Below, one piece after another: positions 6,284-47,202 of a stretch of 50,253 nt of DNA; within the stretch, counting starts at the first letter, position 1, and each line of letters starts with the position of its first letter. Location of the stretch: NCBI GenBank assembly GCA_902779315.1, contig CACZBC010000009.1, forward strand, positions 1-50,253, in the 5' to 3' direction. The notes beneath the pieces are model-generated. The model worked only from the letters and a program-made list of their open reading frames with translations, searched no databases and was not told where the DNA came from. Source of the stretch: an uncultured Bacteroidales bacterium. GTDB lineage: Bacteria; Bacteroidota; Bacteroidia; Bacteroidales; Bacteroidaceae. The translations under genes and the position numbers were made by a program.

Positions 6284-6359
6284 TATAGTGCTTAAATCGC
6301 AAACATATAGTGCGACGTTTGCGATTTACTAGTGCGAAGTTTGGCCTTTTAGTGAGAGC
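6284..6359. repeat. 22-bp array A (4 units)
   Basis: Cores TATAGTGCTT (6284), TATAGTGCGA (6306) and ACTAGTGCGA (6328) are spaced exactly 22 bp apart; a fourth degenerate core (TTTAGTGAGA) lies at 6348, 20 bp on. Spacers are AAATCGCAAACA, CGTTTGCGATTT and a degenerate third; they switch orientation around the middle TATAGTG core. The array lies between the stop of the A1S_2505-like gene and the thrB promoter. Confidence 0.85.
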
Positions 6360-6371
6360 GAAGAACAAACT

Positions 6372-6755
6372 TTACCATCCTTCTGGCAGGACGATATTCT
6401 CTATGTTGTGCGCTTTTTCGAACAATGGAGCCATTTCGGCATCCGTAAAGCCTGCTATGCCGCAACCGATTCGAGTGACAAGGAAAGTCAGTTCCGGATG
6501 GTCCTTAGCGAACTGGATGAACTCGTTCACATAGGGGCGAACAGTCTCCACACCACCTTGCATTGTGGGGATTCCATAGCTTTGGCCCTGCAAGCCGACA
6601 CCTTGTCCCCAGATGGCCCCAAAGTTGTTGTAAGCAATACGTGCTGCCCCTCCAGCATGCATACCTTGTAAATTGCTGCCAAACACGAAAATCTCGCCTG
6701 GCTGAAGTTCCGTAATGAACTCCGGTGTTGTACGTTTCTGTGACATGTTTTCCAT
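6372..6755 (-). CDS. A1S_2505-like small protein (macro-like nucleotide-binding candidate)
   Basis: A 127-residue cytoplasmic protein with EIFVFGSNLQGMHAGGAA, GAIWGQGVGLQGQSYGIPT, and FLVTRIGCGIAGF. This pattern fits the widespread 'A1S_2505 family phage non-structural protein' group, whose glycine-rich loops recall macro/ADP-ribose-binding folds; the biochemical role is unknown to me. The start is set to the ATG at 6755 because the -7 element at 6778-6785 lies inside the longer frame; MSQKR nine bases later is also possible. It is divergent from the DUF1080 gene. The family occurs in phages and in chromosomes, so a phage origin need not be recent here. Confidence 0.65.
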   Translation of the reverse strand: MENMSQKRTTPEFITELQPGEIFVFGSNLQGMHAGGAARIAYNNFGAIWGQGVGLQGQSYGIPTMQGGVETVRPYVNEFIQFAKDHPELTFLVTRIGCGIAGFTDAEMAPLFEKAHNIENIVLPEGW

Positions 6756-6777
6756 GTTTAAACTGTTTGTCGCACTA

Positions 6778-6785
6778 CAAAGATA
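6778..6785 (-). promoter_or_regulatory. -7 element (TATCTTTG) of the A1S_2505-like gene
   Basis: Minus-strand TATCTTTG lies 22 bp upstream of the ATG at 6755. It sits back to back with the plus-strand element at 6828-6835. Confidence 0.5.
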
Positions 6786-6827
6786 CAACTTTTTCTTTTT
6801 TCTCTTCTCTCTTTTCATTTTTTTGTG

Positions 6828-6835
6828 TATATTTG
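6828..6835 (+). promoter_or_regulatory. -7 element (TATATTTG) of the DUF1080 gene
   Basis: TATATTTG lies 29 bp before the ATG at 6865, in the divergent region shared with the leftward A1S_2505-like gene. The upstream sequence is a pyrimidine-rich run without a clear TTG. Confidence 0.55.
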
Positions 6836-6864
6836 CAATTGAAATCTATTAATTTCTAACGACT

Positions 6865-7638
6865 ATGAAGAAACTATTCACATTGGCACTATTCACGATT
6901 GCCACTTGCCCAGCTTGCCTGGCACAAACGACTAAAGAGTATCCGAAACCCGAACCTATGAGACCAGGAATGTCGGAGTACTGGACTCCTCAGCCAAAGG
7001 TGGTGGAGCCTGGCGACATTAAGCTGGCTACCGCTCCCAGCGACGCCATTGTGCTCTTCGACGGAAAAGACCTCTCTGCTTGGATGAACCCTAACGGCTC
7101 GGCTGCGGAATGGACCGTCAAGAACGGCGTAATGACCGTCGACAAGTCGAAGGGCGACATCGTGACCCGTCAGAAGTTCGGCAGCTTCCAACTGCATCTG
7201 GAATGGTGTGTGCCAAAAGGCATCACGGGAGAGAGTCAGGCACGAGGCAACAGCGGCGTCTTCCTGCAGGACATGTATGAAGTGCAGATTCTGGACTGCT
7301 TCGGCAACGAGACTTACGTGAACGGTATGACGGGAAGCATCTACAAGCAGACGCCTCCTCTGGTCAATGTGATGAGGAAACCAGGCGAATGGAACGTGTA
7401 CGACATCATCTACACAGCCCCAGTCTTCAAGGAAGACGGCACTTACCTCTACAAACCATTCGTGACGGTCATCCAGAACGGTGTTGTGCTGCAGAATCAC
7501 ACAGAAATACAAGGTACGACAGAATATATAGGATTCCCACGCACAGTGAAGCACGGCGAAGGTCCGATACGACTGCAATCGCATGGCGACCCCAGTCAGC
7601 CCATCAGCTTCCGCAACATCTGGATTCGTCCTCTGTAA
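6865..7638 (+). CDS. secreted DUF1080 protein (3-keto-disaccharide hydrolase family)
   Basis: A 257-residue exported protein with a signal peptide (MKKLFTLALFTIATCPACLAQ). The body is a single DUF1080 (concanavalin-like beta-sandwich) domain: VLFDGKDLSAWM, EWTVKNGVMTV, LHLEWCVP, GNSGVFLQDMYEVQILD, a GSIYKQTPP block and GPIRLQSHG near the end. Members of this family hydrolyse 3-keto-glycosides produced by Gfo/Idh/MocA oxidoreductases in gut Bacteroidetes. The next gene, 26 bp downstream, is such an oxidoreductase, so the two likely act together in the periplasm on oxidised sugars. The exact substrate cannot be told from the sequence. Confidence 0.85.
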   Translation: MKKLFTLALFTIATCPACLAQTTKEYPKPEPMRPGMSEYWTPQPKVVEPGDIKLATAPSDAIVLFDGKDLSAWMNPNGSAAEWTVKNGVMTVDKSKGDIVTRQKFGSFQLHLEWCVPKGITGESQARGNSGVFLQDMYEVQILDCFGNETYVNGMTGSIYKQTPPLVNVMRKPGEWNVYDIIYTAPVFKEDGTYLYKPFVTVIQNGVVLQNHTEIQGTTEYIGFPRTVKHGEGPIRLQSHGDPSQPISFRNIWIRPL

Positions 7639-7664
7639 GAGAAAAGAAGTCAAAACCATAAACC

Positions 7665-8969
7665 ATGAAAAATATGACGACGAGAAGAAACTTTCTGCGC
7701 CAGTCGGCCTCTGCTTTGGCTGCCGGCATGCTGATGCCTCACGTTCTTTACGCAGGAGCACCCAAGAAACAGACTGCTGCAAGTGACCGTCTGAATGTCG
7801 CTCTGGTCGGTTGCCGCTCTATGGGTTGGCACGACCTCTCTGACATTATGAGATATCCTGGCACCAGTTGTGTCGCTCTCTGCGACATAGACAGCCGCAT
7901 CCTGAGCAATCGGGCTGCCGAAGCGGAAAAGAACTGGGGGAAACGGCCAGCACTCTATGGGGACTATCGAAGGGTGCTGGAGCGTGATGACGTGGACATC
8001 ATCGTCGTTGGCACACCAGACCATTGGCATTGCAAGATAACGACCGACGCTTGCTCGGCAGGCAAGGATGTGTATGTGGAAAAACCTCTGGCCAACAGTA
8101 TTGCCGAATGTGACGCTATGGTGGCTGCAGCTCAACGCTATGGTCGTGTCGTTCAGGTGGGACAGCAGCAACGGAGTGCAGAACTTTGGCACAGCATGAA
8201 GCAGTACATCGACAGTGGTGAGCTGGGACATATCGGTCGTGTCAACGTCTGGGCAAACTTCTCGTATGCCGCTCTGCTGAACCCGGCCAAGGATGGTCCT
8301 GTTCCTGAAGGTGTTGACTTCGACATGTGGCTCGGCCCTGCTCCCAAACGCACTTTCAACGCATCGCGCTTTCATGGTTCATGGCGCATGTTCTGGGATT
8401 ATGGCGGAGGCTTGCTTACAGATTGGGGCGTGCATCTGCTCGATATGGCTTTGTGGGGAATGAACGTCAAGGGAATGCCTCAACTCGTCATTGCGGCAGG
8501 CGGAAATCATGCCTATCCCAATAACTTTTCCGAGACATTCGACACGCTGAGTGTTACCTATCAGTTCCCCGATTACCTCATCCAATGGTCTAACGTGGCC
8601 ATAGAATCGGGACCTTACGGACGCAACTATGGGCTTGAGTTCAAGGGCACTAACGGAACCCTCGTCGCCAATCGCGAGAGTTGGGAAGTGATTCCTCAAG
8701 GCGACAAACTGGAGGCAAAACTGGTGAAGCCGTCGAACAACGACCATCTGGATCATACGAAAAACTTCCTGGACTGTGTGAAGCAGCGCGATATGCAGAC
8801 CGCCTGCCCCATCACGAACGGCAGTTTCTGCGCGAAATACGCTCACATCGGCAACATTGCAGCACGAACTCACCAAGCTTTGACCTACGACGATTCGAAG
8901 CACACTTTCCACAATCGCGAGGCAGACCGCTTCATTACTCCCGATTACCGCAAACCTTGGAAACTCTGA
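7665..8969 (+). CDS. TAT-exported Gfo/Idh/MocA family oxidoreductase
   Basis: A 434-residue protein with a twin-arginine signal (TRRNFLRQSASALAAG). After it come an NAD(P)-binding Rossmann fold (LNVALVGCRSMG), the family motif VEKPLANSIAECDAM with catalytic-region Lys, VGQQQRS, and the C-terminal substrate domain ending TPDYRKPWKL. TAT export implies folding with bound cofactor before transport. With the preceding DUF1080 protein it probably forms an oxidise-then-cleave pair for glycosides. An in-frame start at MTTRRNF (7674) is also possible. A second, distantly related TAT oxidoreductase lies at 32683-34059. Confidence 0.88.
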   Translation: MKNMTTRRNFLRQSASALAAGMLMPHVLYAGAPKKQTAASDRLNVALVGCRSMGWHDLSDIMRYPGTSCVALCDIDSRILSNRAAEAEKNWGKRPALYGDYRRVLERDDVDIIVVGTPDHWHCKITTDACSAGKDVYVEKPLANSIAECDAMVAAAQRYGRVVQVGQQQRSAELWHSMKQYIDSGELGHIGRVNVWANFSYAALLNPAKDGPVPEGVDFDMWLGPAPKRTFNASRFHGSWRMFWDYGGGLLTDWGVHLLDMALWGMNVKGMPQLVIAAGGNHAYPNNFSETFDTLSVTYQFPDYLIQWSNVAIESGPYGRNYGLEFKGTNGTLVANRESWEVIPQGDKLEAKLVKPSNNDHLDHTKNFLDCVKQRDMQTACPITNGSFCAKYAHIGNIAARTHQALTYDDSKHTFHNREADRFITPDYRKPWKL

Positions 8970-8995
8970 AGTTTTCTAGCTGAAACTGGACAAAC

Positions 8996-10468
8996 CTACT
9001 TTCGGTCTTTCCAGTAGCCAGGCATGAAGAGGAAGAGAACGGTGAATATCTCCAGACGTCCGATGAGCATATAAGCGCTCATGAGCCATTTTCCTGAAGC
9101 AGGAACATTGGCGAAGGTGTTGGCTGGACCTGTAGCACCCGTAGCTGGACCTACGTTGCTCAGCATACTGATACTGCTGCCCAAGGCCGTATCGACATCT
9201 GCTCCAAGCAGGGAGTAGCAAGTCATTGCGATAACCACCAACAGGAAGTAGATGAAGACAAAGACCAAAGCCTGTCGCACTTTATGGTCAGGCACGATTT
9301 GCTTGTTGACACGAACGCCCAGGACGGCTCTGGGATGCAGCATCTGGATGAGTTCATTAAAGGCACTCTTGGCACAGATTATTATTCTGATGACCTTGAT
9401 GCCACCAGCCGTACTGCCAGCACAAGAACCTATTGCCATGATGACGACTGTCGGCATCCAGAACGAAGCTCCCCACGCCACATAATCGAACTTCTGAGCC
9501 GAGAAACCGGTACTGGTCGCAACACTGCTCACATGGAACAGGGCTGAGCGGAAACTTTCTTCGAAACCCTTCGGCAACAACTCGTCGGCACTCTCTGGAA
9601 CAGGAGCAAAGTAGAAGAGCAGAATGAATATGACGACTGCAACACCTATATAAGAAAGGAATACGCGAACCTCTTCGTTCTGGAAGAGCACACGGCTGCG
9701 ACGAATGCTCATGTAGTAGTAGAGCGAGAAATTGATGCTGCTGACCACCATGAATATGCTTGCCACATATTCTATATAGCCGCTATGGAAATAGGCAATA
9801 CTCTCGGAGTGCGTACTGAAGCCGCCAGTCGCTATCGTGGTAAACGCGTGACAAACAGCATCATAGAGATTCATCGGTCCGAGCCAATAGAGAAAGGCGC
9901 AAGAGCTGGTCAGCACAAGATAAATCAGGAGCACTCGTCTGGCCGTCGCACCTATTTTAGGACGCAACTTGTCGAGTCCCAAACCTGTCACCTCGGCCGA
10001 ATAGATGTTGCTGTTCTTCATCTCGTAGACGGGGATGAGGGCAAACGAGAAGACGACGATGCCAAGACCTCCTATCCATTGTGTAAGGGCGCGCCAGAAG
10101 AGCAGACCTTTCGGCAAGGGGTCTATCTCGTTGATACAAGTGGCTCCAGTCGTAGTGAAACCGCTCATCGTCTCGAAGAATGCGCTTGCCAAATCCATGT
10201 CTGTCAGATAAAGGAAGGGCACCATTCCGACTATGGAGAAGATAATCCAGGAGAGAGATACAACGAGGAAATTGTCGGCTCGACGCATCCTTCTGTGCTC
10301 TTCTCTGCGACTCAGGAAGATACAGAAAGAGCCTGCAGCTATCGCACCTAATGCTGTAAGCAGGAAGCAGAGCCAGTCGCTTTCATCATTGATGAGGGCG
10401 ACCAGCATGGAGAGCAACAGGAAGAAGCCCTCCATGACGACGAGGATTCCGAGGATTCCTTTTTTCAT
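8996..10468 (-). CDS. trkH: TrkH-type potassium uptake channel subunit
   Basis: A 490-residue inner-membrane protein with about ten hydrophobic segments and the repeated pore-loop pattern of Trk/Ktr/HKT transporters (MSGFTTTGATCI, TIATGGFSTHS, ATSTGFSA, SNVGPATGA). It would carry K+ inward. Its usual nucleotide-binding partner TrkA is not in the window, so that gene must lie elsewhere or another RCK protein must serve. The ATG directly follows the nadB stop codon with no gap, so nadB and trkH are one transcript. The convergent neighbour ends 26 bp from its stop. Confidence 0.9.
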   Translation of the reverse strand: MKKGILGILVVMEGFFLLLSMLVALINDESDWLCFLLTALGAIAAGSFCIFLSRREEHRRMRRADNFLVVSLSWIIFSIVGMVPFLYLTDMDLASAFFETMSGFTTTGATCINEIDPLPKGLLFWRALTQWIGGLGIVVFSFALIPVYEMKNSNIYSAEVTGLGLDKLRPKIGATARRVLLIYLVLTSSCAFLYWLGPMNLYDAVCHAFTTIATGGFSTHSESIAYFHSGYIEYVASIFMVVSSINFSLYYYMSIRRSRVLFQNEEVRVFLSYIGVAVVIFILLFYFAPVPESADELLPKGFEESFRSALFHVSSVATSTGFSAQKFDYVAWGASFWMPTVVIMAIGSCAGSTAGGIKVIRIIICAKSAFNELIQMLHPRAVLGVRVNKQIVPDHKVRQALVFVFIYFLLVVIAMTCYSLLGADVDTALGSSISMLSNVGPATGATGPANTFANVPASGKWLMSAYMLIGRLEIFTVLFLFMPGYWKDRK

Positions 10469-12058
10469 TTATTTCTTGTCGAGTGCGTGCTTCGCGTAGT
10501 CGATTGTGTAGTGCAAGCCGCGACTCTCTTTGCGTTCGAGTGCTTGGCGGGTTATGAGATAGCCCACATTTATCATATTGCGCAACTCACAGATGTCTTT
10601 TGTGGGCTTGACGCGTTTGAAGAGGTGTTCCGTCTCTTCGTAAAGGAGATCGAGACGCTCCCATGCCCGATGAAGACGAAGGTCGCTTCGAACAATTCCG
10701 ACATAGGTGCTCATGATCTGATTCACTTCCTTGACGTCCTGAGCGATGAGGACTTTCTCCTCGTTCGTCATGGTGCCTTCGTCGTTCCATTCAGGCACTT
10801 TTTCGTTGTAGTCGTACTGATCGATGACCTCCAACGAGTGCTTGGCTGCGGCATCGGCATAGACGACGGCTTCGATGAGCGAGTTGCTGGCCAGACGATT
10901 GCCGCCATGAAGACCAGTGCAAGAGCATTCGCCCACAGCATAGAGGCGTTTGATGCTGCTTTGTCCGTCGAGGTCGACCTTGATGCCGCCGCACATATAA
11001 TGGGCGCTGGGAGCGACTGGGATGTACTGTTTCGTGATGTCTATGCCGATGCTCAAGCATTTGGCGTAGATGTTGGGGAAGTGGTGTTTGGTCTCCTCCG
11101 GGTCTTTGTGGGTGACATCGAGGCAGACGTGGTCCAATCCGTGAATCTTCATCTCACGGTCAATGGCGCGAGCCACGATGTCGCGAGGTGCCAGAGAGAG
11201 TCGTTCGTCATATTTCTGCATGAATTCTTCCCCGTTAGGAAGACGAAGAATGCCGCCATAACCTCTCATCGCCTCTGTGATGAGGTAGGCCGGATGCGTT
11301 TCCTGAGGGTTATAGAGGACTGTCGGATGGAACTGCACAAACTCCATATCCTTCACTTTTCCCTTGGCACGATAGACCATAGCTATGCCGTCGCCAGTCG
11401 CGATATTAGGGTTGGAGGTGGTGGCGTAAATGGCTCCAGTTCCTCCCGTCGCCATAAGTGTGACCTTGCTCAGGTAGGTATCCACCTTGCCTGTATCGGG
11501 GTTGAGGACGTAAGCACCATAACATTCGATGTCTGGAGTACGGCGAGTGACGCGGATTCCCAAGTGATGCTGAGTGATGATCTCGACTGCAAAGTGGTTC
11601 TCCAGCACTTCGATGTTGGGATTCTGACGAACGGCAGCCATCAGTCCGCGCTGAATCTCAGCTCCAGTATCGTCGGCATGATGCAGGATTCGGAACTCTG
11701 AATGGCCTCCTTCACGATGGAGGTCAAACTCGCCATCCTCCTTCTTGTCGAAGTTGACGCCCCACTTCACAAGGTCTCTGATGCCTTGAGGCGCATTACG
11801 GACCACTTGTTCCACAGCAGCAGGGTCGCTTATGTAATCGCCTGCAATCATGGTGTCCTCGATGTGCTTCTCGAAGTTGTCGACCAAGAGGTTCGTCACA
11901 GAAGCGATTCCGCCCTGTGCCTTTGCCGTATTCGCTTCTTCGAGGGTTGTCTTGCAGATGAGCGTCACCTTGCCCTTGCCTGCGTTCGCCACCTTCAGCG
12001 CATAGCTCATTCCGGCTACGCCGCTGCCTATAATCAGGAATTCACTCTTCTTTATCAT
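10469..12058 (-). CDS. nadB: L-aspartate oxidase
   Basis: FAD enzyme oxidising L-aspartate to iminoaspartate, the first step of de novo NAD synthesis; quinolinate synthase (nadA, 25732-26712) uses the product. The 529-residue protein begins with a dinucleotide-binding fold (FLIIGSGVAGMSYALKVA), followed by the flavoprotein signature TAKAQGGIAS, the catalytic-domain block HREGGHSEFRILH, and YAVGECSCTGLHGGNRLASNSL. The start at 12058 is chosen because the frame upstream crosses the -7 element at 12095-12102. It is co-transcribed with trkH. Confidence 0.93.
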   Translation of the reverse strand: MIKKSEFLIIGSGVAGMSYALKVANAGKGKVTLICKTTLEEANTAKAQGGIASVTNLLVDNFEKHIEDTMIAGDYISDPAAVEQVVRNAPQGIRDLVKWGVNFDKKEDGEFDLHREGGHSEFRILHHADDTGAEIQRGLMAAVRQNPNIEVLENHFAVEIITQHHLGIRVTRRTPDIECYGAYVLNPDTGKVDTYLSKVTLMATGGTGAIYATTSNPNIATGDGIAMVYRAKGKVKDMEFVQFHPTVLYNPQETHPAYLITEAMRGYGGILRLPNGEEFMQKYDERLSLAPRDIVARAIDREMKIHGLDHVCLDVTHKDPEETKHHFPNIYAKCLSIGIDITKQYIPVAPSAHYMCGGIKVDLDGQSSIKRLYAVGECSCTGLHGGNRLASNSLIEAVVYADAAAKHSLEVIDQYDYNEKVPEWNDEGTMTNEEKVLIAQDVKEVNQIMSTYVGIVRSDLRLHRAWERLDLLYEETEHLFKRVKPTKDICELRNMINVGYLITRQALERKESRGLHYTIDYAKHALDKK

Positions 12059-12174: not shown

Positions 12175-12338
12175 ACTAAGGCGACGATTGCAATTTACTA
12201 GTGTGACGATTGCGTTTTACTAGTGTGACGATTGCAATTTACTAGTGTGAAGTTTGCAATTTACTAGTGTGACGTTTGCGTTTTACTAGTGTGACGTTTG
12301 CAATCATAACACTATACGATTGCTGACGACTAATGCCA
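12175..12338. repeat. 22-bp array B (8 units)
   Basis: Cores start at 12175, 12197, 12219, 12241, 12263, 12285, 12307 and 12329, exactly 22 bp apart. Five consecutive units carry ACTAGTGTGA; the 12307 unit is TAACACTATA, the opposite orientation, and both ends are degenerate. Spacers are CGATTGCAATTT, CGATTGCGTTTT, AGTTTGCAATTT and CGTTTGCGTTTT. The array fills much of the divergent gap between nadB and metH. It is not CRISPR: spacers are all variants of one sequence. Confidence 0.95.
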
Positions 12339-12368
12339 TCTTTTCGAACGTAACTGGGAGCATTCCAT

Positions 12369-12403
12369 CATTTTTCATTTTTCATTTTTCATTTTTCATT
12401 TTT
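12369..12403 (+). repeat. 7-bp tandem repeat (CATTTTT x5) upstream of metH
   Basis: Five perfect CATTTTT units (12369, 12376, 12383, 12390, 12397) end 7 bp before the metH -7 element, where a -33 element would normally be. The tract is a slippage-prone spacer and could set promoter strength through copy number. Confidence 0.9.
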
Positions 12404-15985: not shown

Positions 15986-16942
15986 ATGAAAGTCATCGAC
16001 ATTTTGAATGGCAAACGGCGTCCTTTCGCCAGTTTCGAACTTGTTCCACCTTTGAAAGGCAGTGATGCGAGCCGTCTCTACCAGAGCCTCGACCCCTTGA
16101 TGGAGTTCCAACCTCCCTTCATCAATATCACTTGCCATCGTGATGAAATAGAGTTCGTTCCAAAAGGTGACGGAACTTTCACTAGGATGACTTTGGCAAA
16201 ACGACCTGGCACAGTTGCTATCGTGGCTGCTATTATGCGTCGTTATCCCAAGTTGGAGATTGTGCCACACGTCATTTGTGGAGGCTCTTCATGCAGTAGA
16301 GTTGAGAGCGAACTGCTTGATCTCCACTTCCTTGGCATCAACAACATTATGGCTTTGCGAGGTGACGCTTTGCCTGGACAAAAACATTTTTTGCCAGAAC
16401 CAGACGGTTTCTCGCACAGTTCGGAATTGGTTGGGATGATTAGTGACCTGAATCGTGGCCAATATCTCGACCCTACAGTAAAGCAAGGGCTTGCAACCGA
16501 CTTCTGCATCGGTGTTGCAGGCTATCCAGAGAAGCACTTCGAGGCAGCCAATTTGGAGAGCGACATCCAGAATCTTCGGGGGAAAGTGGAGGCTGGAGCG
16601 GACTATATCGTCACTCAAATGTTCTTCGACAACGAGAAGTTTTTCACGTTTGTCGAGCTTTGCAGAAAGGCTGGCATCAACGTTCCCATTATTCCTGGCC
16701 TCAAACCCATCTCGTCGAAAAAGCAGATTGACATGCTTCCGCGAGCCTTCCACATTGACATTCCGCAGGAACTCGTCAGCCTGATGAACAAGACTAAGAC
16801 TGCCGAAGACGCCTACCAGCTTGGCATCGAATGGGCTATTAAGCAGAGTCGAGAACTCTTGGAACACGGTTTCCCTGCCATACATTATTATACTATGGCC
16901 AAGCCTGACAATGTCTGCGAAATCGTTCGGGCTGTCTTCTGA
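15986..16942 (+). CDS. metF: 5,10-methylenetetrahydrofolate reductase
   Basis: FAD enzyme making the methyltetrahydrofolate that MetH consumes. 318 residues forming one TIM-barrel: the N-terminal FASFELVPP with the conserved Glu, ITCHRDE, VPHVICGG, IMALRGD (folate/FAD region), GVAGYPEKH, QMFFDNEKFF and PIIPGLKPI are all typical of the family. The ATG lies one base after the metH stop, so the two enzymes of the methyl branch are made from one mRNA. The C-terminus, IHYYTMAKPD, matches the family end, so the gene is complete. Confidence 0.95.
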   Translation: MKVIDILNGKRRPFASFELVPPLKGSDASRLYQSLDPLMEFQPPFINITCHRDEIEFVPKGDGTFTRMTLAKRPGTVAIVAAIMRRYPKLEIVPHVICGGSSCSRVESELLDLHFLGINNIMALRGDALPGQKHFLPEPDGFSHSSELVGMISDLNRGQYLDPTVKQGLATDFCIGVAGYPEKHFEAANLESDIQNLRGKVEAGADYIVTQMFFDNEKFFTFVELCRKAGINVPIIPGLKPISSKKQIDMLPRAFHIDIPQELVSLMNKTKTAEDAYQLGIEWAIKQSRELLEHGFPAIHYYTMAKPDNVCEIVRAVF

Positions 16943-19370: not shown

Positions 19371-19446
19371 TATAGTGTGACGATTGCATTTTACTAGTGT
19401 GAAGTTGGCATTTAACTAGTGTGAAGTTGGCCGACATCACACTATA
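19371..19446. repeat. 22-bp array C (4 units)
   Basis: Cores TATAGTGTGA (19371), ACTAGTGTGA (19393, 19415) and TCACACTATA (19437) are exactly 22 bp apart. The first and last cores are reverse complements of each other, so the array has inverted ends. It fills the gap between two convergent genes and ends 9 bp before the stop codon of the leftward DUF4353 gene. Confidence 0.95.
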
Positions 19447-22451: not shown

Positions 22452-22605
22452 ACCTTAGTGACGTTTGCAATCATCACGTTTGACGTTCGCAAACTTCACA
22501 CTAGTAAATCGCAAACTTCACACTAGTAAATCGCAATCGTAACACTAGTAAATCGCAATCGTAACACTATACGTTTGCAATCGTAACACTATACGTTTTG
22601 AAACC
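22452..22605. repeat. 22-bp array D (7 units)
   Basis: Core starts at 22452, 22474, 22496, 22518, 22540, 22562 and 22584, each 22 bp apart: ACCTTAGTGA, TCACGTTTGA, TCACACTAGT twice, TAACACTAGT, TAACACTATA twice. Spacers after TAGT cores read AAATCGCAAACT/AATCG; after TATA cores they read CGTTTGCAATCG. It occupies the divergent region between the DUF4353 and PBP4 genes, about 50 bp upstream of the PBP4 -33 element. Confidence 0.95.
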
Positions 22606-24675: not shown

Positions 24676-24751
24676 AGCGTGCCTAAATGGCAAACTTGGC
24701 ACGTGTAATTGCTCAACTAAGCATGCCTAATCCACAAACTAGGCGTGCTTA
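24676..24751. repeat. 22-bp array E (4 units, diverged core)
   Basis: Cores AGCGTGCCTA (24676), GGCACGTGTA (24698), AGCATGCCTA (24720) and GGCGTGCTTA (24742) keep the exact 22-bp period; the 12-bp spacers (AATGGCAAACTT, ATTGCTCAACTA, ATCCACAAACTA) resemble the AAATCGCAAACT spacers of other arrays. The cores differ strongly from the usual ACTAGTGTGA. It lies between two convergent genes. Confidence 0.75.
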
Positions 24752-28965: not shown

Positions 28966-28987
28966 GTCCCAGTTACGATTAAAAACT

Positions 28988-29107
28988 TCACACTAGTAAA
29001 TTGCAAACTTCGCACTAGTAAATTGCAAACGTCACACTAGTAAATCGCAATCGTCACACTAGTTAAACGCAAACGTCACACTAGATGTTTGTAAACGACT
29101 AGTGTGC
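28988..29107. repeat. 22-bp array F (6 units), overlapping the polA stop codon
   Basis: Cores at 28988, 29010, 29032, 29054, 29076 and 29098, all 22 bp apart: TCACACTAGT, TCGCACTAGT, TCACACTAGT twice, TCACACTAGA, and ACTAGTGTGC in the opposite orientation. Spacers are AAATTGCAAACT, AAATTGCAAACG, AAATCGCAATCG, TAAACGCAAACG and TGTTTGTAAACG. The last core contains the polA stop codon and preceding His codon. Confidence 0.95.
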
Positions 29108-34245: not shown

Positions 34246-35148
34246 ATGATTACGACAGGTCGTTTCGCACCTTCTCCAACAGGAAGAATGCATTTGGGCA
34301 ACGTGTTTTGCGCCCTTCTTTCGTGGCTTTCCGCGAAGAGCAAGGGTGGAGAGTGGCGTTTGCGCATAGAAGACCTCGATCCAGACCGTTCTCGGCGCGA
34401 TTTTGCCCTGCAGTTGATGGACGATTTGATGTGGCTGGGCCTTCCTTGGGATGGGGAAATTGTGTGGCAAAGCCAGCGTTCGGACCTTTATGAGCACTAC
34501 CTCAAGCAGTTACAGGAAACAGGTCTCACCTACCCTTGCTTCTGTTCGAGAGCCGACATTATGGCCACTCAAGCCCCTCACGAAACAGATGGAAGAGTGG
34601 TTTATGCAGGCACTTGCAGAGGAAAAAAACTCGATGAAATGGCGCAAAACAAGCCTTTTGCCACACGATTTATGGTTCCGAACGAGGACATAACATTCCA
34701 AGACGGTCATTATGGCTTGCAGCAAGTCAACCTGGCAAAGCATTGTGGCGATTATGTTCTCAGGAGAAAAGATGGGGCTTGGGCTTATCAGTTGGCAGTC
34801 GTGATAGATGACGCATTGATGGGCATCACGGAGGTTGTGCGAGGACGAGACCTCTTGTTGAGCACCCCACAACAGTTACATCTCTATCAAACCTTGGGTT
34901 TCCACGAGCCTACCTACTTCCATCATCCGCTTTTGGTGAATGAAAACGGGCAACGACTCTGCAAGCGAGACAAATCCCTCGACCTTTCCTATCTTAGAGA
35001 AAAACATAAAAAACCCGATGAAATCGTTGGTTTTCTCGCTTTTCTGGCAGGAATCTTGCCTGAATCGACACCTTCCAAACCCCAAGAACTCCTGCCCCTA
35101 TTCGACTGGCAAAAGGTGCCAAAAGAAGACATCACAGCCTGCATCTGA
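34246..35148 (+). CDS. gluQ: glutamyl-Q tRNA(Asp) synthetase
   Basis: A 300-residue paralogue of the catalytic half of GluRS that attaches glutamate to queuosine in tRNA(Asp). The class I signature is in FAPSPTGRMHLGNVF, and the KMSKS-like loop is CKRDKSLDLSYL. The zinc site of this subgroup is present (CFCSRADI, then YAGTCRG: CxC, Tyr and Cys). It lacks the anticodon-binding domain, which separates it from true GluRS. The start at 34246 (ITTGRFAPSP) is preferred over a GTG 39 bp earlier, which would add a non-family extension. Array G follows after 5 bp. Confidence 0.88.
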   Translation: MITTGRFAPSPTGRMHLGNVFCALLSWLSAKSKGGEWRLRIEDLDPDRSRRDFALQLMDDLMWLGLPWDGEIVWQSQRSDLYEHYLKQLQETGLTYPCFCSRADIMATQAPHETDGRVVYAGTCRGKKLDEMAQNKPFATRFMVPNEDITFQDGHYGLQQVNLAKHCGDYVLRRKDGAWAYQLAVVIDDALMGITEVVRGRDLLLSTPQQLHLYQTLGFHEPTYFHHPLLVNENGQRLCKRDKSLDLSYLREKHKKPDEIVGFLAFLAGILPESTPSKPQELLPLFDWQKVPKEDITACI

Positions 35149-35153
35149 AAACG

Positions 35154-35229
35154 TGGCACGTTACGATTGCAATCATAACACTATACAATTGCAATCGTAA
35201 CACTATACGTTTGCGTTTTAACAACGTTA
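35154..35229. repeat. 22-bp array G (4 units)
   Basis: Cores TGGCACGTTA (35154), TAACACTATA (35176, 35198) and AACAACGTTA (35220) are exactly 22 bp apart. The spacers read CGATTGCAATCA, CAATTGCAATCG and CGTTTGCGTTTT. It fills the gap between gluQ and spmAB stop codons, ending 4 bp before the latter. Confidence 0.9.
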
Positions 35230-35233
35230 CGTT

Positions 35234-36463
35234 TTATCCGAAGAAAATTGCCGCAACTGCAATTGCAGCGATAACACCGCAGATGTCGGTCAGAAGGCCT
35301 GCCATGACGGCGTGTCTTGTCTTGCGGATTCCTACGCTGCCGAAGTAAACGGCCAGTATGTAGAAGGTCGTATCGGTTGCCCCTTGGAAGATGCACGACA
35401 GGCGGGCAATGAAGGAATCAGGGCCGTATTGAGTCATTGCATCGACCATCATTCCGCGTGCTCCGCTGCCAGAAAGAGGCTTCATGATAGCTGTGGGAAG
35501 GGCCGCAACATAGTCCGCATTTCCTCCAAGCATTTCAACAAACTTTCCTAAGCCGCCCACGATGAAGTCCATTGCTCCCGAAGCACGGAAAACACCTATG
35601 GAAACAAGGATTGCGACCAAGTAGGGGATGATGCGGACAGCTGTTTCAAAGCCTCCTTTTGCCCCTTCAACAAAGGCCTCGTAAACGTTTATCTTCTTCC
35701 TTACACCTGCCCCAATAAAGGCCATTATAATGCTGAAAAGCAAGACGTTAGCAACCACAGTACTCCACTTATTCATAGTTTCTTGGTCGACTTGCGTGCC
35801 GAGCCAAATTACTCCACTCACCACAACGCAAATGCCAAGCACGAAAGCCATAATGGCTCTATTGAAGAGATTGATGCGTTGGTACAGGCTTGTGATAATC
35901 ATGCCTGCAAGCGTGGCAATGGCTGTCGCGATAAGAATAGGACAGAAAACGTCCGTGGGTTGGGCCGCACCTGCAACTGCGCGGTAGGTCATCACGCCAA
36001 CGGGGATGATTGTCAAGCCGCTGGTGTTCAGCACGAGGAACATAATCATCGCGTTCGTTGCGGTGTCCTTCTGTTTGTTCAGTTCCTGCATGCCTTCCAT
36101 CGCCTTGAGTCCGAGTGGAGTTGCCGCGTTGTCAAGTCCAAGCATGTTGGCACTGAAGTTCATGAAGATGTGTCCGAAGACAGGATGACCTGCAGGAATT
36201 TCAGGGAAGAGGCGTACCATGAGGGGCGACAACCAACGCGCCAGAACGTTCACCAGCCCGCCTTTTTCGCCTATTTTCATAATGCCCATCCACAGCGAAA
36301 GCACGCCTGTCAGGCCGAGAGATATCTCGAAAGCAGTCTTCGCATTGTCGAACGTGCTGTTCATTATAGCGGGAAATACGTCGGTATTGCCCATGAAAAG
36401 CTGCACCAAGGCAATGAGAAACGCGATGAGGAAAAACCCTATCCAGATGTAATTCAGTACCAT
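35234..36463 (-). CDS. SpmA-SpmB fusion, nucleoside-recognition (Gate) domain membrane protein
   Basis: A 409-residue membrane protein with two Gate domains in one chain: residues 1-200 SpmA-like (FMNFSANMLGLDNAATPLGLKAM), residues 230-409 SpmB-like (AVRIIPYLVAILVSIGVFRASGAM and LPTAIMKPLSGSGARGMM). In sporulating bacteria these are two 'spore maturation' proteins; in non-sporulating Bacteroidetes the fusion is common and its substrate is unknown. It sits at the end of a ctp-ybeY-ruvB transcript, 19 bp after ruvB. Confidence 0.85.
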   Translation of the reverse strand: MVLNYIWIGFFLIAFLIALVQLFMGNTDVFPAIMNSTFDNAKTAFEISLGLTGVLSLWMGIMKIGEKGGLVNVLARWLSPLMVRLFPEIPAGHPVFGHIFMNFSANMLGLDNAATPLGLKAMEGMQELNKQKDTATNAMIMFLVLNTSGLTIIPVGVMTYRAVAGAAQPTDVFCPILIATAIATLAGMIITSLYQRINLFNRAIMAFVLGICVVVSGVIWLGTQVDQETMNKWSTVVANVLLFSIIMAFIGAGVRKKINVYEAFVEGAKGGFETAVRIIPYLVAILVSIGVFRASGAMDFIVGGLGKFVEMLGGNADYVAALPTAIMKPLSGSGARGMMVDAMTQYGPDSFIARLSCIFQGATDTTFYILAVYFGSVGIRKTRHAVMAGLLTDICGVIAAIAVAAIFFG

Positions 36464-39602: not shown

Positions 39603-39662
39603 AGCGAAAAGACTTTTTTTTGCAGAAAAACCTTTCCCCCACCCTAACCTGGTTTGTAAACA

Positions 39663-39782
39663 ACACACTAGTAAATCGCAAACGTCACACTAGTTAATCG
39701 CCAACGTCACACTAGTAAATCGCAATCGTCACACTAGTAAATCGCAAACGTCACACTAGTAAATCGCAAACGTCAAACGTTA
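39663..39782. repeat. 22-bp array H (6 units)
   Basis: Cores at 39663, 39685, 39707, 39729, 39751 and 39773, exactly 22 bp apart: five are [AT]CACACTAGT and the last is TCAAACGTTA. Spacers: AAATCGCAAACG three times, TAATCGCCAACG, AAATCGCAATCG. It lies between the ompA stop side and the ctp promoter, about 60 bp upstream of that promoter. Confidence 0.95.
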
Positions 39783-41823: not shown

Positions 41824-41912
41824 GTTATTTTTGTTAGATGTTGTTCTTTTGTTTTGACGGTTTTATCGTTGTTTGAGTTTAATTTTGTTCTGTTTTCTTA
41901 ACAGTTTTAATG

Positions 41913-42236: not shown

Positions 42237-42242
42237 ATCTCC

Positions 42243-42695: not shown

Positions 42696-42743
42696 CTTTC
42701 TTCTGGTTGTGTACTCCCCTACTCTATTCCTTATTATATAGTG

Positions 42744-42774
42744 CAAAGCTACGACTTTTCGTTCGCTTCTGCAA
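42744..42774 (-). promoter_or_regulatory. internal promoter of dtd-mazG (TTG-N20-TAGCTTTG)
   Basis: Minus-strand TAGCTTTG (42751-42744) with TTG at 42774-42772, 20 bp upstream. The -7 element begins at the uvrC stop codon, so dtd can be transcribed independently of uvrC. Confidence 0.6.
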
Positions 42775-44587
42775 GCGAATCCTTCAAAATCTTTGCTTTC
42801 GAGGCTCCAATCACAGCTGCAAGTTCGCTCTCGTCTGCCTCCTTGATGCGTTTTACGCTGTGCCATTTGCGAAGGAGCAACTCCTTTGTCTTTGGTCCGA
42901 TGCCAGGAACGTCATCCAAAATGCTTGCAACTTGATGCTTGCTGCGTTTGTCACGATGGAATGTGATAGCGAATCTGTGCACTTCATCCTGTATTTGCGT
43001 GAGCAAACGGAACAGCGAAGAATCTGTTTTCATCGCTATAACTTGTGCAGGAAAGCCGTAAAGAAGTTCGTTAGTCCTGTGTTTGTCGTCCTTTGCAAGA
43101 CCTGCAATTGGTATAGACAACTGCAGTTCATCTTCTACAACCTTGCGCACAACTTCCATCTGACCTCGTCCTCCATCCGTTATTATCAAGTCGGGTAGGG
43201 GCTTTTCCTCTTCCATCATACGGCTGTAACGACGCCTAACGACCTCTTGCATACTGGAATAATCGTCTGGTCCAACAACCGTTTTTATATTGTATTTGCG
43301 GTAATCTTGCTTGCTTGGCTTGCATTTCTTGAAAACGACACAGCCTGCAACTGCATCCGTACCACTTATATTTGAGTTGTCAAAGCATTCGATTTGCATT
43401 GGTAGGGTAGGGAGCTTAAGTGCTTCCTGCAGTTCCTTCATCAAACGTACCTGCTTTTGCTCAGGATTTAGCTTGTCGCTTTGGCTGATCCTATCCTTTT
43501 TATATTGCAGGACATTCAGTTTTGAAAGCTCCAGAAGCTTCTTCTTGTCGCCTTTCTGAGGTACTGTAATTGTAACATCTGACCCTAAGTGTTCCACGAG
43601 GAACGGTACGATAACTTCCTTACTTTCACTATTATAACGTTGTCGCATCTCAACAATTCCTGCAGCCAGAAGTTCCTCGTCGCTCTCGTCCAAACGCTTA
43701 GCATACTCGAACGTAAAGGCTTGGGTGATGCACCCATTAGTTACATGAAGGTAGTTGATGTAGGCAACCTTTTCACTATTCTCTATGTTGAAGACATCTA
43801 TGTTGTGTAGAGTGTTGCTTACGACCTCGCTTTTACTGCGATAATTTTCGAGTAGAAGGTATTTACGCTTTATCGTTTCAGCCTCTTCGAACTCCAGTTT
43901 TGCTGCATGTTCCTGCATTCGTTGGAGCATTTGACGTTCCAGCTGAGCTGTGTTTCCTTTGAGTATCTCCTTTGCTTCGGCAATGTATTCCATGTATTCA
44001 TCATGGCTCTGTCGCAATGTACATGGGGCTTTGCAGTTCTTTATGTGGTATTCGAGACACTCTTTATGTTTGTGCTTTTCAATGGATTCCTTTGTAATGT
44101 TATCTCTGCAACGCCTTAAAGGATAGAGTTTTCCGATGAGTTCAAGCAGCAGATACATGGTAGGAACGTGGCTGTAAGGTCCGAAGTAAGTGCCTAAACG
44201 CTTGTTTATTTTCCGAGTTTGGAAGATTCGAGGCAAATATTCATTCGTTACAACGATGCTTGGATACGTTTTGCCGTCCTTCAGAAGGATGTTGTAACGG
44301 GGCGACCATTGCTTGATGAGGTTGTTTTCAAGCAGTAGTGCATCCTCTTCTGTCTTAACTACTATGTACTTGATATCGTGTATCTTAGATACGAGAATAG
44401 CAGTCTTTCGGTTGTCATGTTCTTTCGAGAAATAGGAGTAGACGCGTCGTTTCAGGTTTTTTGCCTTGCCAACGTAGATGATTGTGCCAGTTTCATCGAG
44501 ATACTGGTAACATCCTGGGCATTCTGGCAAATTGCTTACAATGCCCATCAAATAGGCTCTGCGCTTGTCTTTTTCTTCCTTTCCCAT
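42749..44587 (-). CDS. uvrC: excinuclease ABC subunit C
   Basis: The dual-incision nuclease of nucleotide excision repair, 612 residues. N-terminal GIY-YIG domain (PGCYQYLDETGTIIYVGKAK, RRVYSYF), UVR UvrB-binding motif (KLEFEEAETIKRKY, about 210-230), the RNase H-like 5' nuclease domain (IECFDNSNISGTDAVAG, IITDGGRGQME), and C-terminal helix-hairpin-helix (DDVPGIGPKTKELLLRKW). Complete by length. Array I and apt lie upstream. Confidence 0.95.
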   Translation of the reverse strand: MGKEEKDKRRAYLMGIVSNLPECPGCYQYLDETGTIIYVGKAKNLKRRVYSYFSKEHDNRKTAILVSKIHDIKYIVVKTEEDALLLENNLIKQWSPRYNILLKDGKTYPSIVVTNEYLPRIFQTRKINKRLGTYFGPYSHVPTMYLLLELIGKLYPLRRCRDNITKESIEKHKHKECLEYHIKNCKAPCTLRQSHDEYMEYIAEAKEILKGNTAQLERQMLQRMQEHAAKLEFEEAETIKRKYLLLENYRSKSEVVSNTLHNIDVFNIENSEKVAYINYLHVTNGCITQAFTFEYAKRLDESDEELLAAGIVEMRQRYNSESKEVIVPFLVEHLGSDVTITVPQKGDKKKLLELSKLNVLQYKKDRISQSDKLNPEQKQVRLMKELQEALKLPTLPMQIECFDNSNISGTDAVAGCVVFKKCKPSKQDYRKYNIKTVVGPDDYSSMQEVVRRRYSRMMEEEKPLPDLIITDGGRGQMEVVRKVVEDELQLSIPIAGLAKDDKHRTNELLYGFPAQVIAMKTDSSLFRLLTQIQDEVHRFAITFHRDKRSKHQVASILDDVPGIGPKTKELLLRKWHSVKRIKEADESELAAVIGASKAKILKDSLAEANEKS

Positions 44588-44615
44588 CCGTTGTCTGCAG
44601 TTACAATGTCAAACG

Positions 44616-44691
44616 TATAGTGTTACGTTAGCAATCATAACGTGTTACGATGGCCAACATATAGTGTTATGATAGCAATCGTAACGTTGTA
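44616..44691. repeat. 22-bp array I (4 units)
   Basis: Cores TATAGTGTTA (44616), TAACGTGTTA (44638), TATAGTGTTA (44660) and TAACGTTGTA (44682), exactly 22 bp apart. The 44638 core is close to a perfect palindrome. It separates uvrC from apt and ends 11 bp before the apt stop codon. Confidence 0.9.
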
Positions 44692-44702
44692 TGTTTTTCA
44701 TC

Positions 44703-45233
44703 TCATATCTTTAAGAGTGTCGTCATCTCCACATCCTTGTCGAAAACAGCCCTTCCATTCAGACCTTCGATGGTCAGTTCGATGATAAAGTTGATGTATA
44801 TCTTCTTGGGATTGAACTGCTTAACAAGATTGTAGGCTGCTTTCATGCTACCCCCTGTAGCGAGGAGATCATCATGCAGGAGCACAACATCTTTTTCCTC
44901 AATTGCATCTGTGTGAATCTCGATGGTGTCCTTGCCGTACTCCTTCATGTAGCTTTCCTGACGTGTTTCTGCAGGCAGTTTGCCAGGCTTGCGACACATC
45001 ACGAACCCTGCTCCCAGTTTGACGGCCAAAGCGGCACCAACCACGAAGCCTCGGCTCTCGATGCCCACCACCTTTGTTATGCCTTTGTCTTTGTAGAGGT
45101 CGTACAGTTCGTTGACCATTATCTTCAGACATTTTGCATTCTTATATAGTGTGCTTACGTCCTTGAACTGTATTCCTGGAACAGGAAAATCAGGCACATT
45201 TCGCAGGTTTTTCAGTAGTATTTCGTTGTTCAT
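44703..45233 (-). CDS. apt: adenine phosphoribosyltransferase
   Basis: Salvages adenine to AMP with PRPP. 176 residues from MNNEILLKNLRN; the PRPP loop is VVLLHDDLLATGGSMKA, and the N-terminal DFPVPGIQFKDVS and IESRGFVVGAALA are typical of the family. A longer in-frame start 39 bp earlier would overlap the near-parS site region and is not needed. It lies between mnmG and uvrC in a leftward run. Confidence 0.94.
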   Translation of the reverse strand: MNNEILLKNLRNVPDFPVPGIQFKDVSTLYKNAKCLKIMVNELYDLYKDKGITKVVGIESRGFVVGAALAVKLGAGFVMCRKPGKLPAETRQESYMKEYGKDTIEIHTDAIEEKDVVLLHDDLLATGGSMKAAYNLVKQFNPKKIYINFIIELTIEGLNGRAVFDKDVEMTTLLKI

Positions 45234-45264
45234 ATTCAATATGTTATGTGTTGTTTTGTGCAAT

Positions 45265-45280
45265 TGTTTCACGTGAAACT
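45265..45280. other. near-consensus parS (ParB-binding) site
   Basis: TGTTTCACGTGAAACT matches the Spo0J/ParB site TGTTNCACGTGAAACA at 15 of 16 positions, including the full palindromic core GTTTCACGTGAAAC. It lies in the 46-bp gap between apt and mnmG, touching the mnmG stop codon. Chance occurrence of the 14-bp palindrome in 50 kb is unlikely. Confidence 0.75.
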
Positions 45281-47202
45281 TATCTGTTCATCATTACAAG
45301 CAAGACGTTGATGTCGCTGGGGCTCACTCCAGGGATTCGGCTGGCTTGTGCCATCGTTTCCGGATCTATTTTCGTGAGTTTCTGACGGGCTTCCGTGCTG
45401 AGTGATTTGATGTCCTCGTAATTGAATCGACCCTTGATGCGAATGTTTTCTAGGCGTTGTATCTTTTCAGCGATTTCCTTTTCTCTGCGAATGTATCCGC
45501 TGTACTTCATGCGAACTTCGGCAGCCTCGATGATTTCCTCGCGTCTATTTTCTATTTTGTTCAACTTGTCGGATAGGGTAGGGATGAGGGTTGCGAGGTT
45601 CGACAGATTGAGTTGTGGACGCATCACAAGGTCGATGAGTTTGCAACCTCGCTGCAGTTCTTCGCTTCCCAAAGCCTTCAGTCCTGGATTGATAAGTGCG
45701 GCTTTCACGCTAAAGGTATTGCAGAACTCTTCTATCTCGTTGATTGTCTGCTTCTTGCGTAACCAGTGATTATAGCGTTCTCGAGTGGCCAAGCCCATTT
45801 CGTAGCTGCGTTCCGTCAGTCTTGCATCCGCATCATCTTGGCGAAGAAGGATGCGGTATTCGGCTCTCGAAGTGAACATTCTGTAGGGTTCATCCACGCC
45901 TTTCGTGACGAGATCATCAATCAAGACGCCTATGTAGGACTCATCCCTTCGCATCACAAACGGCTCTTGTCCTGCAATCTTGCGTGCTGCGTTTATTCCT
46001 GCAACGAGTCCTTGTCCTGCAGCTTCCTCGTAACCAGTCGTGCCATTCACTTGTCCGGCCATGAAGAGACCGTCCACAATCTTCGATTCCAGCGAGTGTC
46101 GAAGCTGGGTAGGGTCGAAGTAATCGTATTCGATGGCATAGCCTGGACGATAGATTTGCAGGTTGCGGAAAGCCGGAATCAGTTTGAGGGCTTCAATCTG
46201 GGCATCGATGGGGAGCGAACTCGAGAAGCCGTTCAGGTAGAGTTCCCTTGTTGAGGCACCTTCTGGCTCCAGAAACAATTGGTGTTCAGTACGTTCCGAG
46301 AAAGTGACGAGCTTTGTCTCGATGCTTGGACAATAGCGCGGACCTATGCTCTGAATCTGCCCATTATAGAGCGGAGAATCGGGTAGGGCAGCCCGCAAAC
46401 GCTCGTGCACAGCCTCGTTTGTGTAGGTAATCCAGCAAGGCAACTGTGGCAACTGTCGCGGCTCGCCCATATACGAGAACTTGTGGAAGTCGTTCTCTCC
46501 GTCCTGACGTTGTAGGAGGGAGAAATCGACAGAACGTCCATCGATTCGAACAGGCGTGCCAGTCTTCATTCTGCCGACCGTAATTCCTTGAGCTGCAATG
46601 CTTTCCGAGAGGTGCAGACTTGGTAATTCAGCACAACGACCACCTGGGATTTTAGTCCGTCCGATGTGCATCAATCCGTTGAGGAAAGTGCCTGCTGTGA
46701 TGATGACGCAAGGCGCCTTGAAAATCACGCCCTGTAATGTTCGCAAACCACTAACGTGACGTTTGCCATCATCACGTTTGACGTTTGCCATCGTCACGTT
46801 TGACGTTTGAGTTTTATCTGTTAGTAGTTCTACGACTTGGTCTTGCCAGATGGAAAGGTTGGGTGTGTTCTCGAGAATCTCACGCCAAGTCCAGATGAAT
46901 TTTGCCCTGTCACATTGTGCTCTGGGGCTCCACATAGCCGGTCCTTTCGAACGGTTCAGCATTCGGAACTGTATGGCTGTCGCGTCTGTTACCTCGCCTG
47001 TATGACCTCCCAATGCATCTATCTCCCTGACAATCTGGCCTTTAGCAATGCCTCCGATGGCTGGATTGCACGACATTTGCGCAATCTTGTTCATGTCCAT
47101 CGTGATGAGACAAGTCTTCGCTCCGAGTTTTGCGGCGGCACTTGCGGCTTCGCATCCAGCGTGTCCTGCACCGACTACTACGACATCATATTTGAACTCC
47201 AT
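45280..47202 (-). CDS. mnmG: tRNA uridine-5-carboxymethylaminomethyl modification enzyme MnmG, with repeat-derived insert
   Basis: FAD protein that with MnmE makes the cmnm5U34 wobble modification of tRNA. 640 residues from the ATG at 47202; a TTG directly before it is ignored. N-terminal FAD fold (VVVVGAGHAGCEAASAAA), CNPAIGGIAKGQIVREIDALGG, GTFLNGLMHIGR, GRMKTGTPVRIDG, YFDPTQLRHSLESK, and MFTSRAEYRILLRQDDAD are present. The C-terminus ends GVSPSDINVLLV, as in the family. Residues about 130-151 are encoded by three 22-bp repeat units (66 bp) that the family lacks, in the FAD-domain loop after WQDQVVELL. Confidence 0.95.
   Translation of the reverse strand: MEFKYDVVVVGAGHAGCEAASAAAKLGAKTCLITMDMNKIAQMSCNPAIGGIAKGQIVREIDALGGHTGEVTDATAIQFRMLNRSKGPAMWSPRAQCDRAKFIWTWREILENTPNLSIWQDQVVELLTDKTQTSNVTMANVKRDDGKRHVSGLRTLQGVIFKAPCVIITAGTFLNGLMHIGRTKIPGGRCAELPSLHLSESIAAQGITVGRMKTGTPVRIDGRSVDFSLLQRQDGENDFHKFSYMGEPRQLPQLPCWITYTNEAVHERLRAALPDSPLYNGQIQSIGPRYCPSIETKLVTFSERTEHQLFLEPEGASTRELYLNGFSSSLPIDAQIEALKLIPAFRNLQIYRPGYAIEYDYFDPTQLRHSLESKIVDGLFMAGQVNGTTGYEEAAGQGLVAGINAARKIAGQEPFVMRRDESYIGVLIDDLVTKGVDEPYRMFTSRAEYRILLRQDDADARLTERSYEMGLATRERYNHWLRKKQTINEIEEFCNTFSVKAALINPGLKALGSEELQRGCKLIDLVMRPQLNLSNLATLIPTLSDKLNKIENRREEIIEAAEVRMKYSGYIRREKEIAEKIQRLENIRIKGRFNYEDIKSLSTEARQKLTKIDPETMAQASRIPGVSPSDINVLLVMMNR
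46750..46815. repeat. 22-bp array J (3 units) inside the mnmG coding sequence
   Basis: Cores ACTAACGTGA (46750) and TCACGTTTGA (46772, 46794), 22 bp apart, with spacers CGTTTGCCATCA, CGTTTGCCATCG and CGTTTGAGTTTT. Three units give 66 bp, the smallest copy number that keeps the reading frame. It translates to a Thr/Asn/Lys-rich segment in MnmG. Confidence 0.92.

Follow-up and report, generated by a model that had tools for sequence, protein, structure and literature searches.

Across an uncultured Bacteroidales bacterium and its relatives in the genus, arrays of tandem 22-bp units keep their pitch and their positions while their letters change; in one conserved gene for tRNA modification, this comes at the expense of the protein sequence. 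We analyzed a stretch of 50,253 nucleotides (hereafter the window; contig CACZBC010000009.1 of assembly GCA_902779315.1), which holds ten such arrays, A to J. Because of the fixed pitch, the conserved places, the changing words, the dyads that look DNA-level and the even spacing, our best reading is that the arrays are putative binding sites, rewritten in concert, which a dimeric protein would recognize on the DNA; we hold it tentatively and rate it somewhat short of an even chance. Interspersed repeats in bacteria are usually taken to be mobile elements or to act in RNA, and the pattern described here hints at a fast-changing, hitherto unrecognized chromosome-marking system. Below, G numbers denote genomes and L numbers denote loci or stretches read.

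Fixed period, conserved positions and changing words

Self-matching was scanned at lags 9-47. Within the window, a score of at least 12 at lag 22 returned exactly the ten array places and nothing else (11 segments, with array A split in two), compared with no segment at lags 19, 20, 23, 24 and 25 and one at lag 21; at score 14, there were eight segments at lag 22 versus none at lags 19, 20, 21, 23, 24 and 25. The ten arrays at 22-bp spacing that an earlier note on this DNA had described are therefore real, even though Tandem Repeats Finder missed arrays A and E. Matches to AGTGTGACGTTTGC with up to three mismatches numbered 38 in the window, compared to 4.9 (sd 2.3) in shuffles. The spacing also holds elsewhere in the genome, as the earlier note required of its claim: the window plus a further 400 kb (450 kb in all) gave 53 lag-22 segments versus 0, 5 and 1 at lags 20, 21 and 23. 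For the same lags, six syntenic relatives (271 kb) gave 57 versus 0, 5 and 0; ten genus genomes (349 kb of stretches), five of which are also among the six syntenic relatives, gave 34 versus 0, 8 and 1; and eighty named loci (998 kb) gave 30 versus 0, 8 and 7. A scan of 339 kb from 17 other genomes in the class or order yielded two segments at lag 22, while five same-order stretches outside the genus (L196-L200, 81 kb) yielded none at lag 22 and three at lag 23, a signal that resembles the 23-nt BrickBuilt repeat considered below. The period-22 signal is limited to a clade.

We then compared array positions by matching pairs of neighboring genes in the window to those of ten relatives, using window intergenic regions of at least 60 bp. 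At window regions with an array, the relative carried an array in 20 of 26 comparisons, versus 0 of 20 at window regions without one (Fisher p 5e-8, a nominal value since the comparisons share sites and ancestry). For narrower gaps, an array in the relative only was found in 4 of 31 comparisons.

The words themselves differ between species. With up to two mismatches allowed, the 14-mer typical of the window arrays has 758 matches in its own genome versus 15 for the reversed control, which bears out the genome-wide recurrence that the earlier note had proposed to count. Among 60 other genus genomes, the highest counts were 85 in G008 (control 24) and 55 in G036 (control 29), and the top count among 60 genomes of the phylum, 40, was the same as its control. 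Since relatives use other words, a fixed 14-mer is misleading as a family marker, and we rejected it for that use. Relatives have dominant units of their own, differing from that of the source genome. Over 22 whole genomes, CGCCCTATAGGGGA occurs 197 times in G005, 43 times in G035 and 0-2 times in the other 20, and ACGCCGCACGCGGCGATTG occurs 612 times in G027, 513 in G052, 276 in G154, 41 in G156, 12 in G036 and 0-3 in the other 17. The idea that the two-turn period itself matters is strengthened in that the sampled genus relatives retain the period with a different sequence. At L033:13351-13579, two unrelated 22-bp families adjoin, ACTAGTGTGA-type words being followed by TGATTTTCGCACAGAAAAAAGT words.

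The arrays of the window, with the gene that contains the last of them, are as follows.

Array A, 6277..6343, + strand: 3 units with TATAGTGCG / ACTAGTGCG words; 22-bp steps read directly
Array B, 12175..12320, + strand: 5-6 units, the final unit inverted; divergent genes either side
Array C, 19373..19443, + strand: 3 units and one inverted; convergent genes
Array D, 22455..22598, - strand: about 6 units, with orientation reversed close to the left end; divergent genes
Array E, 24684..24751, no strand: 3 units of a separate word family (GGCACG / GCATGCC / GGCGTGC)
Array F, 28978..29097, - strand: 5 units; convergent Na/H exchanger and DNA polymerase I genes
Array G, 35146..35234, - strand: 2-3 units; convergent genes
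Array H, 39656..39779, - strand: 5-6 units
Array I, 44600..44693, + strand: 4 units; upstream of a uvrC-like gene
Array J, 46753..46810, + strand: about 3 units; in frame within mnmG/gidA
mnmG/gidA, 45280..47205, - strand: Pfam GIDA PF01134 (E 1.2e-156), protein alignment; holds array J in a loop

The earlier note had placed all ten arrays in a single family. One main array family does run genome-wide, but array E stands apart, with another word set and no match to the 14-mer; words similar to those of array E are found at its orthologous site in RUG11599. The arrays are not CRISPR, as the earlier note had held: the supposed spacers are variants of each other, and every part of the unit recurs across arrays.

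At single sites, the change of words can be followed between species. Thus, site F carries ACTAGTGTGA in the source genome, CACGTG in G036, GGTTAACC in G024 and GACGCGTC in G035. The sister species G172, with 82-88% identity to the window DNA in long matches, has the ACTAGTGTGA family in common with it. Site G is almost unchanged there, whereas at sites D and F the G172 array is shorter by 44 bp, exactly two units (133 vs 89 bp in the sister species at site F), with words exchanged as blocks; for site D this rests on the left part of the alignment, the right flank running through an extra sister gene. Site H keeps its length with several words swapped, and site I shows dispersed changes, 9 per 100; site C has no ortholog among the sister contigs compared. 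Judging by these alignments, three kinds of change occur in arrays: point mutations, steps of whole units and the replacement of words in blocks, the last of which suggests copying between arrays.

The window is contig 9 of a genome of 2.83 Mb in 107 contigs that is 84% complete. Among the matches listed for its Na/H-exchanger protein, RUG11599 was closest (86%, 599 residues), followed by SRR10912534_bin.99 (78%), and the relatives named by this protein are mostly uncultured Prevotellaceae/Bacteroidaceae/Bacteroidales metagenome-assembled genomes, several of them rumen-derived. From these relatives, the source bacterium is probably an uncultured rumen member of the Prevotellaceae/Bacteroidaceae/Bacteroidales group. 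The window has no Rfam match at gathering scores and no tRNA. A perfect 7-bp tandem repeat (TCATTTT, 5.1 copies) at 12368-12403 lies directly upstream of a TACCTTTGCA promoter-like motif before a metH-like gene; period 7 is the second most frequent tandem period in the genome sample.

Unit symmetry, gene context and spacing

The earlier note had divided each unit into a core and a spacer; two 11-bp half-units in alternating orientation describe it better. When 235 own-genome units were cut between the TTG and CAA of the linker, they resolved, by eye, into words with two half-words round a central dinucleotide that was mostly AC or GT. At the orientation flips in arrays B, C and D, core centers lay 19 bp apart in all three cases, and some units of G024 are near-perfect 22-bp palindromes. 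Read in this way, the 22-bp unit is a putative pair of 11-bp half-sites in opposite orientation. Symmetry about centers 11 bp apart was judged against a control with permuted columns (p no greater than 0.05, 40 permutations). Across eight genomes, 78 of 135 arrays exceeded the control, including 13/14 in G008, 10/14 in G027, 13/17 in G024, 4/11 in G036, 4/8 in G005, 7/8 in G035 and 7/8 in G172. In the named loci, 22 of the 80 contained arrays, and 15 of 31 arrays were symmetric.

Symmetry of this kind could act in DNA or in a transcript. Imperfect sense-strand pairs in 67 codirectional arrays comprised 365 G-T and 416 A-C pairs, and wobble is not favored. On either strand, the arrays folded better than shuffles did (mean z about -2 to -7), and the strands were alike. 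T-rich ends, against a background of 24%, were present on the sense 3' side in 29% and on the antisense side in 44% of 73 codirectional arrays; where genes converge they made up 51% of 70 ends, and where genes diverge 45% of 42. Since there is neither a G-U bias nor an excess of T-runs on the sense side, the array symmetry looks to act at the DNA level. An intrinsic terminator is not supported on the same counts, a hairpin followed by a sense-strand T-run not being what the arrays show.

Simple open reading frame calls place 46 of the 55 own arrays between genes, and likewise 44 of the 56 in the six relatives, at a median of 22-25 bp from stop codons and 97-120 bp from starts. Divergent genes flank 17 arrays, which occupy 7 of 35 and 10 of 27 regions of that kind, and arrays are densest per kb in convergent regions. 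To assess spacing, array labels were permuted within each contig and orientation class of intergenic regions. The coefficient of variation (CV) of the gaps was 0.67 versus 0.93 expected in the own genome (p 0.004) and 0.51 versus 0.77 in the six relatives (p <0.001), which share sites with one another; gaps below 2 kb made up 2% versus 18% expected and 5% versus 22%, respectively. Arrays are more evenly spaced than expected by chance, a result that is less firm under strict nulls.

The array within mnmG/gidA

Array J, whose location within a housekeeping coding sequence the earlier note had missed, occupies a loop of the mnmG/gidA reading frame that follows WQDQVVELL. The gene was found in 91 of 101 genus genomes; 50 loci were read and 47 loops parsed. 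A lag-22 array was present in 18 of the 47, two of which also score at lag 21 and none at lag 23, and no array appeared when the first 35 loops were scanned at lags 15-20 and 24-30. Grouped by eye, the loop words fall into about seven families (CACGTG, CCCTATAGGG, CTGCAG, CGCCGCRYGCGG, GGCGTGCC, TTCCCAC..GGGAA and TACCTCACGAGGTA), and the frame is preserved while the words change. Between the sister species, identical block changes occur in both repeats, and differences amount to 13 of 78 positions in the loop array and 109 of 960 in downstream mnmG.

A tree built from flanking mnmG DNA covered 23 of the 47 loci, and in it a branch with 100/100 support separates four non-periodic loops from the 18 periodic ones and one shortened loop. 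CTGCAG is the sole word family that forms a clade; well-supported branches require at least two changes for three word families, and a single origin is possible for two others. G052, which has CGCCGCACGCGG words in common with G027, G154 and G156, falls in this tree within a well-supported group whose other genomes lack those words. Because of this branching, the mnmG array was probably acquired once and then rewritten in frame several times. Long inserts without a 22-bp period occur in eight of 12 further loops, and the loop therefore tolerates inserts generally. These non-periodic inserts belong to other lineages of the genus (L260-L265, L267 and L274) and include an Ala/Pro/Ser-rich repeat in G158.

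Directly past the mnmG/gidA stop codon, at 45266-45279, stands GTTTCACGTGAAAC (0.01 expected), which we take to match the center of the parS consensus. G024 has the palindrome at the equivalent place, and G027 has it there with one change. Its presence suggests that the window may lie near the replication origin.

Readings of the arrays and known systems

If the arrays are binding sites, 11-bp half-sites lined up with their orientation alternating would offer a dyad at each helical turn and a unit every two turns (22 bp), and a dimeric sequence-specific protein could cover the array from a single side of the helix, the fixed 22-bp pitch being a requirement of that bound protein. Dyad-symmetric sites in helical phase, a trait of dimeric sites, are indeed present in the 78 of 135 arrays noted above. 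At intervals of about 4.5-6.5 kb, such a protein might mark places on the chromosome where one transcription unit gives way to the next, for instance as boundaries of the nucleoid or of topology; its preferred word would shift between species, and the arrays would be rewritten by copying between them together with selection. The mnmG array would then be one such site, which a clade gained a single time and has retained because the loop tolerates it. Two of the roles offered by the earlier note, a protein-binding array and a chromosome-organizing mark, are those toward which the 11-bp dyads and the even spacing lean. Concerted evolution in bacteria becomes testable here, with 18 genomes, about seven word families and one mnmG loop, and co-variation provides a route to a candidate DNA-binding protein behind the arrays.

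Several observations weigh against the binding-site reading. We found no array-binding protein or enzyme. The dominant word of the source genome is weakly symmetric, with 20 of 55 arrays significant. Under stricter spacing nulls (regions of at least 120 or 160 bp), p ranged from 0.007 to 0.056 for the CV and from 0.004 to 0.065 for short gaps, and operon length and structure were not controlled. The loop words of mnmG match those of their genomes in part. Thus, the loop word is also common genome-wide in G005, G035, G027, G156 and G154, but that of G174 has six genome matches, three of them in mnmG; G052 has GGCGTGCC words in its loop, while CGCCGCACGCGG has 513 sites in its genome; and the own loop and that of G024 contain minor words of their genomes. 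When ten loops with a genome pool were compared with pools of array 9-mers, the own pool was best in four, tied in one and beaten in five, a result biased by very unequal pool sizes, the own-genome pool being far the largest. This mixed match implies that the loop would track the vocabulary of the arrays and not merely the commonest genome word. A further point against binding sites comes from G008, where an outward-facing end word, AACRACYNNAGT, stands at the left end of 5 of 15 arrays, at the right end of 7 and at both ends of 3 (0.06 expected).

These end words bring us to the alternative of a selfish, untagged repeat resembling repetitive extragenic palindromes (REPs) or miniature inverted-repeat transposable elements (MITEs), whose inverted ends would enclose a 22-bp minisatellite and which a transposase or copying would spread, without host function; new variants would overwrite old ones at the same permissive places, giving rise to the species differences. 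We consider it the main rival, a little less probable than the binding-site reading. Besides the end words of G008, the mostly intergenic location near stop codons and away from starts agrees with it, as does the gain or loss of entire units (44 bp at D and at F), and such end words and whole-unit steps would fit the self-spreading repeat that the earlier note had listed among possible roles. In-frame insertion into a gene is a habit of Rickettsia palindromic elements (RPEs), which are longer, single elements inserted as palindromes in housekeeping genes. Related passages are found in PMC3733652, and BrickBuilt (PMC4596501) is a precedent. Comparison of filled and empty sites showed whole arrays present or absent, for example in G035 versus G008 after the homologue of the gene at 15986-16942. 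In two G036 arrays (L191:2-116 and 4243-4333), we noted a common leader with a CCCCCTTTAGGGGG-like hairpin (44-bp rows), a possible element end. What speaks against a selfish repeat is that positions are conserved across species with sequences replaced, which is unexpected for random insertion, and that spacing is even, unless there is target immunity. Moreover, outward end words were found at four left ends, three right ends and no pair of ends among 63 own arrays (0.15 expected) and at the left end of two of nine arrays in G172, but at none in G027, G024, G036, G005 and G035; no clear target duplication was seen by eye at five filled/empty comparisons; and the Y1/RAYT transposase (PF01797), present in 7 of 22 genomes, is absent in 15, including G005, G008, G024, G036, G052 and the source genome, which is 84% complete.

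The remaining explanations seem much less probable. Elements acting in RNA, as bidirectional terminators or 3'-UTR (untranslated region) hairpins, would account for arrays just past stop codons, for their density in convergent regions, where T-rich ends are most frequent, and for folding that beats shuffles on both strands; this reading is disfavored on balance because of the missing wobble bias, the lower share of T-rich ends on the sense side and the 17 arrays between divergent genes, where T-rich ends occur too, and we regard it as improbable. A mutational by-product, in which slippage or fold-back synthesis mechanically prefers 22-bp tandem duplications, would suit a period shared by unrelated sequences, even adjoining ones as in L033, but leaves unexplained one word at hundreds of sites, the conserved positions and the even spacing; it appears no more probable. 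Sequences of the DNA-uptake type, which biased transformation would keep in concert and of which each species would have its dialect, would explain species-specific words found genome-wide and also within a gene, much as the uptake-sequence dialects of Neisseriaceae work. We know of no uptake sequences in the form of tandem 22-bp arrays, and we judge this explanation the least probable of all.

Compared with known systems, the in-frame mnmG array resembles an RPE in being a palindromic repeat within a gene, and differs in being a 22-bp tandem array whose words depend on the species. Arrays of the heptamer TAACTGA, which passages of PMC4679880 report from Beggiatoaceae, Cyanobacteria and five Bacteroidetes as proposed binding sites, are similar in that many intergenic direct-repeat sets occur per genome; theirs, however, have a 7-bp unit of one fixed sequence and, in those passages, lie mostly just upstream of starts in the main genome studied. 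Among the titles and abstract openings of the papers listed, we found none on 22-bp arrays of this kind.

REPs and bacterial interspersed mosaic elements (BIMEs) are described in passages of PMC3733652 as short, palindromic, high-copy and often species-specific, located mostly downstream of genes with some copies intragenic. The arrays share these traits, being high-copy short palindromes mainly 3' of genes and in some cases inside them, although symmetry in the own genome is weak. They differ in forming strict 22-bp tandems, whereas REPs are singlets and dimers, and in keeping positions while sequences are replaced. The GTAG and CGTC tags are absent on either strand from the dominant units of G005, G024 and G027; CGTC is present in minor words of G005 and in the own-genome word, there inside a half-site. 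Given the missing tag and the absence of the RAYT transposase in 15 of 22 genomes, we rejected membership in the GTAG/CGTC superfamilies.

BrickBuilt of Porphyromonas gingivalis is, according to passages of PMC4596501, a minisatellite-MITE with imperfect 23-nt tandem repeats in variable number, intergenic and with flanking ends, present in 19 copies in ATCC 33277; the same passages mention an earlier description of 22-nt tandem direct repeats in strain W83, locations not given. A Bacteroidales host and intergenic tandem repeats of near-equal unit length make for a likeness. The present arrays, however, have units of 22 bp and not 23, occur about once per 7-8 kb in the stretches read, turn over their words and are also intragenic. 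The 23-nt unit is not theirs (1, 0 and 1 segments at lag 23 in the own, syntenic and genus samples), and IS5-type inverted ends (GAGACCTTTGCA, up to two mismatches) were in no excess in the window, the stretch searched for them, with 9 versus 6.2 expected. The arrays are nearest to REP palindromes and BrickBuilt, yet fail the tests of tag, transposase, unit length and end sequence.

A last comparison concerns a fuller form of chromosome marking by an evolving code, which we consider rather unlikely on the sequences at hand: pitch would be fixed and positions even and conserved, a dimer would read 11-bp half-words, and the arrays, that of mnmG included, would be rewritten as the word changes. 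Such a system may be likened to eukaryotic satellite DNA that co-evolves with its binding proteins.

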